This document shows, one piece after another, positions 11,693 to 15,046 of a stretch of DNA of 64,000 bases. This DNA is from Bacteroidales bacterium (GTDB lineage: Bacteria > Bacteroidota > Bacteroidia > Bacteroidales > Rikenellaceae). The DNA lies in NCBI GenBank assembly GCA_910574205.1, contig CAJSYJ010000004.1, positions 248,001-312,000 on the forward strand, given 5' to 3'. The notes below the pieces were generated by a model that did not search any database, had not been told where the DNA came from, and worked only from the letters and a program-made list of their open reading frames with translations. A program made the translations under genes and the position numbers. Each line of letters begins with the position of its first letter. Positions within the stretch are counted from its first letter, which is position 1.

Positions 11693-12784
11693 CTAATCTA
11701 TTATAGCGTTTACTCTTATCGTGTGCATCGGGTGCGCGGGATCGTTCGTAATGACGAATACGCGCGAGACGAACGCCCCCTCGCGTGCCGCCTGCGACGG
11801 CGAGAAGGTTACCGTGATGCTGCCGCTGCCGCCGGCGGGGATCATAAGTCCGCCTTCGGGGCGGCACCTCACGGCGGCGATGTTGCTCTCTGCCTTGCGG
11901 ACGATCAGAGGCGCCTGCCCCGTGTTGCGTATCTCGACGCGCTGCGAGATGATGCCGGAGTCTGCGGCGACATGTCCGAACCTGACTATCGTCGAAGGCA
12001 GCTGGGCCTTGGGCGATGCCGTGTCGACCGCCTCGTCGAAGTTGTCGACGGCGATGGCCTGCGTGGTCAGAAGCGTTTCCGAGGGTATGCCGTCGACCAC
12101 CATTGTCAGGGCATCGCGCATCGTGCCGTAGCGCGAGCTGTTCTCCGCCAGACGGTAACGCAATACGATGTCGCCCGTCTGTCCTGCGGCCAGCAGCTCG
12201 TCGTACTCGATTTGCAGGGCGCCGGAGGTCTCCACGGGCGCGAGCCTTACGAGCACCGGATGATCCGAGCGGTTGACGCAGCCTATGCGGGTCTCGACGC
12301 TCTTGCCGTGCTCGACGTATGCGAACGCATGGAAATTGCTCTCCAACCTTACGCCGCCGCCCATGTCGAACGGATATATCTCTTCGAGGCTCTTCTGCCG
12401 CGGCAGTACGCGGCCGACGATCTTCAAGCGTATATCCTCGTCCGAATCCGAAACCCTGACCGCAATGCTGCGGTCGATGCGTCCCGGCCGGTTCATCGGG
12501 TCGTAGCGTATCTCCAACTCGAAGCGTCCGTCAGGCTGTATCGGCCGTCGGTCGTAGCGCGGCGTCGTGCATCCGCACGAAGTCATGACCTCGACTACCG
12601 CCAGCGGTTTGTCGGATGTGTTGACCGCCTCGAAGCGGCATGTGACCGCTCCGCCGTCCTCGCGCACCTCGCCGTAGTCGAAGGTGGCGGCAGAGAACCG
12701 TAATGCACTCTGCGCCTGAACGCCCGCGAAGGCGAGCAGCGCGAGAGGCAAGAGGCAGATATATGGTATGCTTCGTATCTTCAT
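11693..12784 (-). CDS. Secreted DUF1573 protein
   Basis: A 363-residue exported protein (signal peptide residues 1-~24, ending GVQAQ). It contains two or three immunoglobulin-like DUF1573 repeats. The first is FSAATFDYGEVREDGGAVTCRFEAVN with SCGCTTPRYDRRPIQPDG, the family's CGCT hallmark. A later unit has FGHVAADSGIISQRVEIRNTGQAPLIV. DUF1573 proteins are common periplasmic or surface proteins of Bacteroidota with no fixed function. The start MKIRS at 12784 is preferred because the -7 box on this strand (12798-12791) lies just 6 bases upstream. Confidence 0.85.
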   Translation of the reverse strand: MKIRSIPYICLLPLALLAFAGVQAQSALRFSAATFDYGEVREDGGAVTCRFEAVNTSDKPLAVVEVMTSCGCTTPRYDRRPIQPDGRFELEIRYDPMNRPGRIDRSIAVRVSDSDEDIRLKIVGRVLPRQKSLEEIYPFDMGGGVRLESNFHAFAYVEHGKSVETRIGCVNRSDHPVLVRLAPVETSGALQIEYDELLAAGQTGDIVLRYRLAENSSRYGTMRDALTMVVDGIPSETLLTTQAIAVDNFDEAVDTASPKAQLPSTIVRFGHVAADSGIISQRVEIRNTGQAPLIVRKAESNIAAVRCRPEGGLMIPAGGSGSITVTFSPSQAAREGAFVSRVFVITNDPAHPMHTIRVNAIID

Positions 12785-12790
12785 CGAGTA

Positions 12791-12798
12791 CAAAGTTA
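12791..12798 (-). promoter_or_regulatory. -7 promoter box for the DUF1573 gene
   Basis: On the minus strand this reads TAACTTTG, six bases before the ATG at 12784, again leaving almost no leader. Confidence 0.6.
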
Positions 12799-12859
12799 CA
12801 CTAATTTATATTTTTTGCGATTTTTTTGTCTAAAATTTTGCAGAATTAAAAATATGGCG

Positions 12860-12867
12860 TATATTTG
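12860..12867 (+). promoter_or_regulatory. -7 promoter box for tRNA-Asn
   Basis: TATATTTG, with a TTTTG about 20 bases upstream as a -33 element, lies 31 bases before the tRNA. Confidence 0.65.
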
Positions 12868-12898
12868 CAGTCCAGAAACGGAAAGGTTCTTTCACAAT

Positions 12899-12972
12899 GC
12901 CTGAATAGCTCAGTTGGTTAGAGCACATGACTGTTAATCATGGGGTCCTAGGTTCAAGTCCTTGTTCAGGCG
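12899..12972 (+). tRNA. tRNA-Asn (GTT)
   Basis: A 74-base cloverleaf: acceptor GCCTGAA pairs with TTCAGGC, the D-arm is GCTC...GAGC, and the anticodon loop CTGTTAA gives anticodon GTT. The T-arm contains TTCAAGT. CCA is not encoded. Confidence 0.95.
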
Positions 12973-13055
12973 CATTTGCGCGAGGGTTGCAAGATAGAGT
13001 CCGATATCCGAAAGGAGTCGTCGGCTGAGGCCTTGCAGTCCCGAGCCATTTTTAC

Positions 13056-13130
13056 GGGAGCTTAGCTCAGCTGGTTCAGAGCGTCTGCCTTACAAGCAGA
13101 GGGTCGGGGGTTCGAATCCCTCAGCTCCCA
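13056..13130 (+). tRNA. tRNA-Val (TAC), copy 1
   Basis: A 75-base cloverleaf with acceptor GGGAGCT/AGCTCCC and anticodon loop CTTACAA (anticodon TAC). It is identical to the copy at 13623. A short hairpin with a T-run at about 13141-13172 follows and probably ends the transcript. Confidence 0.95.
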
Positions 13131-13182
13131 CTCTTATATCAACCGCTTACGGTAACGCAGGCGGTTTTTTTGTGAGATACAA

Positions 13183-13257
13183 GGGAGCATAGCTCAGTTG
13201 GTTTAGAGCGCCTGCTCGACAAGCAGGAGGTCTGCGGTTCAAATCCGCATGTTCCCA
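13183..13257 (+). tRNA. tRNA-Val (GAC) with C at position 33
   Basis: A 75-base cloverleaf with acceptor GGGAGCA/TGTTCCC, anticodon stem CCTGC/GCAGG (13211-13215, 13223-13227) and loop TCGACAA (13216-13222), which gives anticodon GAC. The base before the anticodon is C, where U33 is almost universal. All other arms pair normally, including the T-arm TGCGG/CCGCA. Confidence 0.9.
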
Positions 13258-13500
13258 CACCGGACAAACGACAGCGACAGATAAAATCTGTCGCTTTTTT
13301 TTGTGCTTCGCGGGGCGTGAAAATCAATTATCGTCCCGCTTCGCACCAATTCGCTTCACTTCGTTCGCATGTCGTTTGTCGGCATGTAACGGTGGATTAT
13401 TATATTTGCGGTTGCAGGGTGGGATTGATATTCGATTTCAGCGGTCGCCCTGCGAGTGCTTCGCACTTCAAATCCGCAAGATTTTGCGATACGCCGATCG
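13258..13500 (+). repeat. tRNA-linked repeat module, copy 0 (after tRNA-Val GAC)
   Basis: This is a non-coding module. Its parts in order: an outer inverted repeat ACAAACGAC (13264-13272) with GTCGTTTGT (13371-13379) that encloses a terminator hairpin (13274-13294, then T8) and a GTGC...GCAC hairpin; a -7-like box TATATTTG at 13401-13408; a variable-arm hairpin GCAGGGTG/CGCCCTGC (13414-13421, 13446-13453) whose loop contains CGATTTCAGCGG; a second hairpin AGTGC-TTC-GCACT; and TTCAAATCCGCA at 13467-13478, an exact 12-base copy of the T-arm of the tRNA just upstream (13238-13249). It is a diverged relative of the 227-bp copies that follow the next tRNA. Confidence 0.8.
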
Positions 13501-13595
13501 GTAGCGGTAGATATGATTTGTCGTTATCCGCAGCAATCTTGTGTGAAAAATAAGGAAAAAACGGTCATAGTCTTGCGGGAACGATTTATTTATTC

Positions 13596-13603
13596 TATAT
13601 TTG
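13596..13603 (+). promoter_or_regulatory. -7 promoter box for tRNA-Val copy 2
   Basis: TATATTTG lies 19 bases before the tRNA, with a TTGC about 20 bases further upstream. Confidence 0.6.
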
Positions 13604-13622
13604 CATCCGCAATAAGCGATAA

Positions 13623-13697
13623 GGGAGCTTAGCTCAGCTGGTTCAGAGCGTCTGCCTTACAAGCAGAGGGTCGGGGGTTCGAATCCCTCAGCTCCCA
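13623..13697 (+). tRNA. tRNA-Val (TAC), copy 2
   Basis: A 75-base tRNA identical to the copy at 13056-13130. Its last ~19 bases are duplicated twice downstream (13906-13924 and 14133-14151) as part of a tandem repeat. Confidence 0.95.
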
Positions 13698-14272
13698 CAA
13701 GCAAACGACGGCGACAGATAAAATCTGTCGCTTTTTTTTGTGCTTCGCGCAAGGTATGAAAATCAATTTTCGTCCCGCTTAGCACAAATGCGCTTCACTT
13801 CGTTCGCATGTCGTTTGTGTGTCGTGGTGCTGGTAATTCTGTTGTTTGGGGTTGCGAGAATAGTGTATATCGATTTCAGCGGTATTCTCGCTCCGGCTTC
13901 GCCGGTCGAATCCCTCAGCTCCCACAAGCAAACGACGGCGACAGATTTTATCTGTCGCTTTTTTTTGTGCTTCGCGCGAGGTATGGAAATCAATTTTCGT
14001 CCCGCTTAGCACAAATGCGCTTCACTTCGTTCGCATGTCGTTTGTGTGTCGTGGTGCTGGTAATTCTGTTGTTTGGGGTTGCGAGAATAGTGTATATCGA
14101 TTTCAGCGGTATTCTCGCTCCGGCTTCGCCGGTCGAATCCCTCAGCTCCCACAAGCAAACGACGGCGACAGATTTTATCTGTCGCTTTTTTTGTGCTTCG
14201 CGCGAGGTATGGAAATCAATTTTCGTCCCGCTTAGCACAAATGCGCTTCACTGCGTTCGCATGTCGTTTGTG
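13681..14272 (+). repeat. 227-bp tandem repeat carrying tRNA-Val 3' ends
   Basis: Units begin at 13681, 13908 and 14135 (period 227); the third is truncated near 14272. Each unit opens with the last part of tRNA-Val, followed by a terminator hairpin (13711-13731, 13938-13958, 14165-14185, each with a T-run) and, in full units, two hairpins. The first hairpin is GCGAGAATA/TATTCTCGC (13854-13862, 13883-13891) around a loop holding CGATTTCAGCGG. The second is CCGGC-TTC-GCCGG. Terminator loops are AAA in the first unit and TTT in the others. No coding capacity is evident; the short ORFs that cross the units are side effects of the repeat. Confidence 0.9.
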
Positions 14273-14330
14273 CTTTGCGCCGTTTGGCCGTGATTTGTCT
14301 GTATCGATTATTGCGGCATTGTGTCCGGTG

Positions 14331-14954
14331 TCAAACTTTCAAGGCGGTAATTTCGCGTTGCAGGGCGTCGAGGAAGCGGGCGGCGTGGGCGCCGTCCATC
14401 TGGGTGTGGTGGAACTGGAAAGAGATACGGAGCGTTGTCCTGAAAAGTCGGCGGCGGTATCTGCCCCATATCAGAAATGGGTTGTTGAAGATGCCGCTGT
14501 ACATGCCGACTGCGCCGTCGATCTCGCATTGAGTCAAGGCGGAGGTGCCGATGACCATGCTTTCGGCAAGATCATGATTGGCGCACGTCTCGGCGACCTG
14601 CCGTGTAAGGCGCAGATAGTCGTCGTTGAAGCGTCGCAGATCGTTCGAGAAGGGGATGTCGCACGAGCTGACCTCGCCCTGTCGGTTGGCGACGATAGTG
14701 TTTACGGCGATCGTGTCGTAAAGCATAAGTCTGCCGTCGACGGGCAGCATGTGGAACTCCGCGATGTCGTTTGCGGCGCGGCCGATGCACCAGCACATAA
14801 GCATATTGAACTTGATCTTTTTTCTGCGGCTCAGGCGCACGAGGTGCGATACGTCGAGCGTCTTGAAGAGCGTTACCATAGGCATCGGCGCCTGCATCCA
14901 CATCTCGAATGCGTAAGCGCGTGATGTCTGTGTGGGGTCGACTGCATGTTTCAT
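14331..14954 (-). CDS. Chloramphenicol acetyltransferase-like (CatA family) protein
   Basis: A 207-residue single-domain acyltransferase of the CAT fold. The catalytic motif is near the C-terminus: FQFHHTQMDGAHAARFL, with the HHxxxDG active-site histidine. An N-terminal half typical of the family includes FKTLDVSHLVRLSRRKKIKFNMLM. CatA enzymes transfer acetyl groups from acetyl-CoA to chloramphenicol; many chromosomal relatives in Bacteroidales have other, unknown acceptors, so resistance should not be assumed. A -7 box TATCTTTG on this strand (14987-14980) lies 25 bases upstream of the start. The gene stands alone. Confidence 0.82.
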   Translation of the reverse strand: MKHAVDPTQTSRAYAFEMWMQAPMPMVTLFKTLDVSHLVRLSRRKKIKFNMLMCWCIGRAANDIAEFHMLPVDGRLMLYDTIAVNTIVANRQGEVSSCDIPFSNDLRRFNDDYLRLTRQVAETCANHDLAESMVIGTSALTQCEIDGAVGMYSGIFNNPFLIWGRYRRRLFRTTLRISFQFHHTQMDGAHAARFLDALQREITALKV

Positions 14955-14979
14955 AGCTTGTCATTTATTTGTTTGCCCG

Positions 14980-14987
14980 CAAAGATA
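14980..14987 (-). promoter_or_regulatory. -7 promoter box for the CAT-like gene
   Basis: TATCTTTG on the minus strand, 25 bases before the ATG at 14954. Confidence 0.65.
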
Positions 14988-15046
14988 GCTCAATCGCTCC
15001 ACACGGTATAGAATATTTTCGACAAGCCGGGATGCAAAATACGGCA

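Follow-up and report, generated by a model that had tools for sequence, protein, structure and literature searches.

Features of the locus

The window analyzed is a stretch of 64,000 nucleotides from a genome of the family Rikenellaceae (G000). In it, tRNA-Val(GAC) and copy 2 of tRNA-Val(TAC) are followed on the same strand by small units of the same kind, as the original prediction had claimed: one unit of 220 bp (V1) after the former, and two units (T1 and T2) with a spacing of 227 bp and 98% identity after the latter (Table 1). These are the three modules first described; a further, third copy behind tRNA-Val(TAC), T3, consists of a P part only. P denotes the 5' part of a unit (an outer stem, a terminator-like hairpin with a T-run, and more hairpins) and Q the 3' part (a T-stem copy, hairpin 1 and hairpin 2), followed by the tail, which copies the 3' end of the tRNA. 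Every full unit ends in such a copy of its own tRNA, as predicted. The 12-base copy of V1 is a shortened tail, longer copies being present at the same tRNA in relatives (L009, L082). The H0 arm of V1, GTGGATT, is antisense to positions 13471-13477 of the Val(GAC) tail, with one G-T pair. No integrase gene was found within the units of the window, which are too short for one, in line with the earlier view of their size. A search of positions 12500-15000 against Rfam returned tRNA alone at gathering score and no other family.

Table 1. Positions of the tRNA genes, units and unit parts in the window
Feature	Position	Strand	Description	Evidence
tRNA-Val(GAC)	13183..13258	+	Host gene, presumed entry site (T-loop) of V1	ARAGORN; Rfam RF00005
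Unit V1	13259..13478	+	P part, Q part and shortened tail	Repeat comparison; covariance-model match G000:C4:261409-261487
V1 P part	13265..13378	+		Sequence; P folds in relatives
V1 P outer stem	13265-13272 / 13371-13378	+	CAAACGAC / GTCGTTTG	
V1 terminator-like hairpin	13274-13294	+	T-run after it	
V1 H0 5' arm	13392..13398	+	GTGGATT	Fold; own-tRNA complementarity across units
V1 T-stem 5' copy	13408..13413	+	GCGGTT, as in its tRNA	T-stem copies across units
V1 hairpin 1	13414..13453 (arms 13414-13421/13446-13453)	+	GCAGGGTG / CGCCCTGC, CGATTTCAGCGG in loop	Covariation, fold
V1 hairpin 2	13455..13467	+	AGTGC TTC GCACT, = AGTGCTTCGCACT	Covariation
V1 tail	13467..13478	+	TTCAAATCCGCA, 12-base copy of tRNA-Val(GAC) T-loop/T-stem (= 13238-13249)	
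tRNA-Val(TAC) copy 2	13623..13698	+	Host gene, presumed entry site of T1 and T2	ARAGORN
Unit T1	13699..13925	+		Repeats, fold; covariance model 81.6 bits
T1 P part	13702-13817	+	Terminator-like hairpin 13711-13731	
T1 H0 arm	13824-13833	+		
T1 T-stem copy	13848-13853	+		
T1 hairpin 1	13854-13891	+	Arms GCGAGAATA/TATTCTCGC at 13854-13862/13883-13891	
T1 hairpin 2	13893-13905	+	CCGGCTTCGCCGG (CCGGC-TTC-GCCGG)	
T1 tail	13906-13925	+	TCGAATCCCTCAGCTCCCAC, = tRNA-Val(TAC) 13679-13698	
Unit T2	13926..14152	+	Anatomy as T1	Repeats, fold; covariance model 81.6 bits
T2 hairpin 1	14081-14118	+		
T2 hairpin 2	14120-14132	+		
T2 tail	14133-14152	+	TCGAATCCCTCAGCTCCCAC, = 13679-13698	
Truncated unit T3	14153..14270	+	P part only	Repeats
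T3 terminator-like hairpin	14165-14185	+		
T3 outer stem, closing arm	14263-14270	+		

Downstream of the arrays lies a reading frame of 207 aa (14331-14954, minus strand), which may encode a chloramphenicol-acetyltransferase-type protein; similar DNA occurs in another genome near a unit-free tRNA-Val(GAC) (L081, G007). Elsewhere in the same genome as the window, three more units follow a tRNA-Lys (L066, G000:C2:298848-299503) and one Q follows tRNA-Ser(TGA), with a stretch before it that resembles the type R units described below (L067, G000:C1:444567-444644).

Occurrence and association with tRNA genes

The genomes compared were those of Alistipes sp. and Rikenellaceae, many of them metagenome-assembled and many from ruminant guts. 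All results are inferences from the sequences of drafts, in which tandem repeats are poorly assembled and contig edges cut off several arrays. A DNA search of relatives gave matches in 12 of 61 genomes, chiefly to the Q part and with an upstream tRNA on the same strand at most loci. A covariance model of the Q part (R1) was built from 17 Q sequences and matched 100 of 151 Alistipes genomes, with 1-13 matches each; the match scores within the genus are not independent, since the model was built from members of that genus. About one third of the Alistipes genomes had no match, and the 197 other genomes of the order yielded two weak ones (E 1e-3 and 9e-3). The exact Q pattern was not found in viral contigs, the units of the window had no similarity to phage and plasmid records, and no description of such units was found in a literature search.

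Among 138 examined matches, 118 have a tRNA on the same strand within 800 nt upstream; 13 lie too close to a contig end for linkage to be judged, and seven entries, two of which are one place, are unlinked. Units are carried by about 20 tRNA types. The tail corresponds to the own tRNA from the T-loop onward, with runs of identity most often reaching exactly to its last base (20-22 nt). A second class of tails measures 9-10 nt and stops after the T-stem; it shows erosion of many arrays and counts against the cassette mechanism proposed below. A match to the end of the own tRNA at 10 or more of 12 bases was found for 71 of 106 scorable tails, compared with 1.9% for other tRNAs. The covariance search in relatives thus bore out the expectation that matches would sit at tRNA 3' ends and copy the matching T-arm. 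An insert flanked by a duplicated tRNA 3' end, a feature of tRNA-targeting tyrosine-integrase elements, is found at these loci.

P parts at the same tRNA in other species had a mean identity of 0.58 (baseline 0.53). For Q parts the values were 0.73 between different tRNAs within one genome and 0.68 at the same tRNA in other genomes (baseline 0.62). These comparisons suggest that P goes with the tRNA and Q with the genome, a moderate effect uncorrected for phylogeny.

Folding of the units as DNA or RNA

The claim that the two hairpins keep pairing while their sequence changes was upheld over 17 related sequences, in which 96.3% of pair cells were paired, compared with 44-52% with slid partners, and 12 of 16 pairs had changed on both sides. 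In hairpin 1, 95% of the pairs in 124 sequences were Watson-Crick and 2.2% were G-U; the G-U share was 8.5% in the T and acceptor stems of the tRNAs at the same loci (Fisher p = 6e-10, which overstates independence because the hairpin copies are related). The scarcity of G-U pairs and the strong covariation favor a folded DNA over an RNA, although a rigid RNA can also give such a G-U deficit. Ahead of the T-stem copy, mostly ending 13-20 nt before it, lies a segment antisense to about nt 62-70 of the own tRNA. Antisense runs of at least 7 nt were present in 35% of units for the own tRNA and in 5% for other tRNAs. Predicted folds often pair this segment with the tail (helix H0), so that H0 meets the two hairpins at a junction. 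The predicted folds of the P parts are branched and vary in sequence from tRNA to tRNA, and the P parts, also those of relatives, open with a terminator-like hairpin directly after the tRNA. The sequence ahead of Q showed no conserved promoter; a candidate TATATTTG box occurs in V1 alone (13401-13408).

One alternative is that Q is a tRNA-like structured RNA that acts on its own tRNA (in processing, in decay or as a sponge), with H0 mimicking the stack of acceptor and T-stem, the two hairpins standing in place of the T-loop, and mobility being secondary. The tRNA-like topology of H0 and its match to the own tRNA agree with this, as do the compensatory changes, the retention of a Q-type structure at the same tRNA (e.g. 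His) across many species, and the antisense arm, which still fits the tRNA in several units with eroded tails. However, a terminator-like hairpin stands between tRNA and Q, G-U pairs are few and a conserved promoter is absent; the structured RNA made by read-through of the tRNA that was originally put forward has thus become less likely. The Rfam result, the Alistipes genomes without a match and the variation in order and presence of units at one tRNA also speak against a tRNA-like RNA, and we regard it as unlikely.

Insertion and order of units

A check for empty sites, proposed with the original prediction, found Val loci that are free of units, including the whole Asn-Val-Val-Val cluster in L087. 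At orthologous tRNA-Pro(GGG) genes the order is tRNA-R in G117 and tRNA-Q-R-R in G089, which belong to different species; in the latter, an extra Q unit sits exactly at the tRNA end, measuring 233 bp and ending in a single tail of 21 nt. At tRNA-Ser(CGA), a Q followed by an R-type unit (G116) compares with the R-type unit directly behind the tRNA (G105). A further pair at tRNA-Pro(GGG) differs in order, with Q then R in G065 and R then a partial Q-type P in G083. Units added beside a fixed entry site, as looked for in integron-type arrays, are thus found in three comparisons between species, at tRNA-Pro(GGG) and tRNA-Ser(CGA). These comparisons of draft genomes suggest that a new unit is inserted precisely behind the tRNA and that arrays build up in this way. 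In G030, a Gln tail closes the Lys array and a Lys tail closes the Gln array, which is inverted and lies 4.4 kb from it; a crossover between the two arrays would give this arrangement, and so could homologous recombination.

The arrays might also have arisen with no site-specific enzyme, by slippage in replication, by template switches at palindromes and by homologous recombination among the repeats. Two units that are alike over 75 bp can recombine by ordinary homologous recombination; the near-identical tandem copies in the window, the truncated last units, the Lys/Gln tail exchange and the failure to find a common dedicated enzyme all fit such an origin. Slippage, however, does not place a unit of another type, with one full tRNA tail, exactly between the tRNA end and an older unit, nor does it explain a single conserved Q fold across about 20 tRNA types. 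An origin by these routes is considered quite unlikely.

Unit types, mixed arrays and cargo

Two further unit types end, like Q units, in tails of their own tRNA. Type R, which was located through similarity and pattern only, was present in 56 of 101 genomes behind Ser, His, Arg and Pro tRNAs among others, with the end GTAGCC/AATCC, and arrays that mix Q and R occur. Type S was seen at tRNA-Ala(GGC), with the end GCGG/GTTCGAATC; the S copies that were read hold the reverse complement of part of the variable loop and T-stem of their own tRNA. S units (L256, L258, L259, L260 and L261) contain a CCCTCCTTATCAAAGGAGGG-like palindrome, which is also seen after other arrays and probably represents an intergenic repeat that is common in Alistipes.

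Genes occur within or beside some arrays. In the tRNA-Arg(TCT) arrays L239:5523-5942 (G011) and L236:6774-7190 (G030), a stretch of about 0.9 kb with a rhodanese lipoprotein gene (PF00581) splits the tRNA-Arg tail into AATCCCGCC and CCGCCGGAATCAC, and this stretch is gene-bearing array cargo, perhaps with an end type of its own. In L221:6950-11598 (G071), a Cas9 gene neighbors an R site as well as a tail of tRNA-Arg. At L220:4560-6600 (G003), at tRNA-Arg(TCT), two R sites 2 kb apart surround a truncated integrase N-terminus, with a weak match to PF17293, and a Kinase-PolyVal gene.

Candidate enzymes

No recombinase gene linked to the units was found. The Y1 transposase of the REP/RAYT and IS200/IS605 systems was detected in none of 28 genomes, controls being positive, and was rejected as mobilizer. 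An IS110 transposase, likewise rejected, was found in none of 12 carriers, which also spoke against the antisense arm as a bridge RNA. A reverse transcriptase was rejected because it was absent from 10 of 16 carriers, and relatives of the integrase fragment of G003 were too rare for a mobilizer (13 of 101 genomes). Tyrosine recombinases (PF00589) are present in every genome. A Xer gene adjoins tRNA-Leu(CAG) arrays in several genomes; because the tyrosine recombinase read in G064 is a XerC-like gene in the order lspA-xerC-hpf, and the same nearness is seen in G091, a genome without a match to the covariance model of Q, this position is attributed to housekeeping synteny, and the gene was rejected as an array-linked enzyme. 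G129 and G064, which are 97-98% complete and have 10-11 Q matches, hold just two tyrosine recombinases each. This points to XerC/XerD, to a helper that has been lost, or to a serine recombinase or DDE transposase.

The two recombinases in each of these array-rich genomes also bear on the view that the units are worn attachment-site remnants of ordinary integrase-bearing islands in tRNA genes. Such a view would account for the integrase fragment and Kinase-PolyVal gene between the R sites of G003 and for the rhodanese gene within the Arg array, but it is hard to reconcile with this low number, with the rarity of the G003 integrase relatives and with a P-Q anatomy that is constant over many tRNAs; we rate it as very unlikely.

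Proposed mechanism and significance

The units are probably non-coding, integron-like array cassettes with the tRNA T-loop as entry site and a recombinase acting in trans. A unit would consist of P, which places a terminator-like hairpin behind the tRNA end, a folded site (Q, or R or S elsewhere), and a tail that represents the displaced tRNA 3' end from the T-loop to the last base. Strand exchange would take place in the T-loop, between the tRNA gene and a Q site that is single-stranded or extruded as a cruciform. Specificity of units for their own tRNA could come from the helix H0, formed by the tail and the antisense arm. Insertion would be harmless because the tRNA 3' end is restored, and a terminator supplied, with every unit that is inserted. 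Candidates for the recombinase are the host XerC/XerD or a helper, on a phage or island, that is now absent. The checks proposed with the original prediction support the tiny non-autonomous element at tRNA ends that was first envisaged; its mobilization in trans is what we infer, the search for a mobilizing enzyme having found none.

A broader reading, which we put forward tentatively as possible, is that of a new array system: folded-DNA cassettes (Q, R and S) addressed by tRNAs and self-matched to their own tRNA would enter T-loops genome-wide by way of XerC/XerD, with no dedicated integrase, and would occasionally carry genes such as that of the rhodanese lipoprotein. If cassettes of this kind exist, they would represent an integron-like array system that is not an integron, in which each genome offers many entry sites and the tRNA sequence serves as the address, as well as a natural case of folded-DNA recombination and of tRNA-specific landing sites. 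They would also make the evolution of tRNA ends directly testable, with regard to the nature and timing of insertions and the enzyme responsible.

Comparison with known systems

In integron arrays, attI recombines with a folded attC, a new unit is placed beside the entry site, the order changes and non-coding units are possible; CALIN arrays are integrase-less. The present arrays share with integrons and CALIN arrays the small tandem units behind a fixed entry site, the newest unit beside it, the changes in order and the hairpin site at the unit end. They differ in that the presumed entry is a tRNA T-loop, of which there are many per genome, in that no integrase is linked, and in that every unit brings along a tRNA 3' end as well as a terminator. 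By eye, attC boxes were not evident: R has GTTAAGC, which fits GTTRRRY, with no RYYYAAC partner, and none was seen in Q. For this reason the units are described as appearing to work like integron cassettes and are not classed as integrons.

Like MITEs and REP/RAYT elements, the units are small, non-coding, palindromic and multicopy; unlike these, they are bound to tRNA ends in fixed orientation with a tail of their own tRNA, and the 28 genomes hold no Y1/RAYT. In mycobacteriophage Ms6, strand exchange has been placed in the 7-bp T-loop (PMC1762012). The units resemble tRNA-targeting elements of this type in the T-loop as presumed exchange site, the duplicated tRNA 3' end and the intact tRNA (PMC1762012), and differ from them in their size of about 220 bp without an integrase, in the conserved folded Q, R or S site and in the mixed tandem arrays.

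The CTX phage integrates in a Xer-dependent manner via a folded single-stranded attP and is a precedent for the action of housekeeping XerC/XerD on a hairpin site. Its target is dif, whereas the targets here would be tRNA T-loops, with Xer as a candidate. Without an enzyme of their own, the units would combine the logic of integron cassettes, seen in the folded site, the mixed arrays, the differing order of units and their addition next to the tRNA, with that of tRNA-targeting integrases, seen in the tRNA tail and the T-loop.
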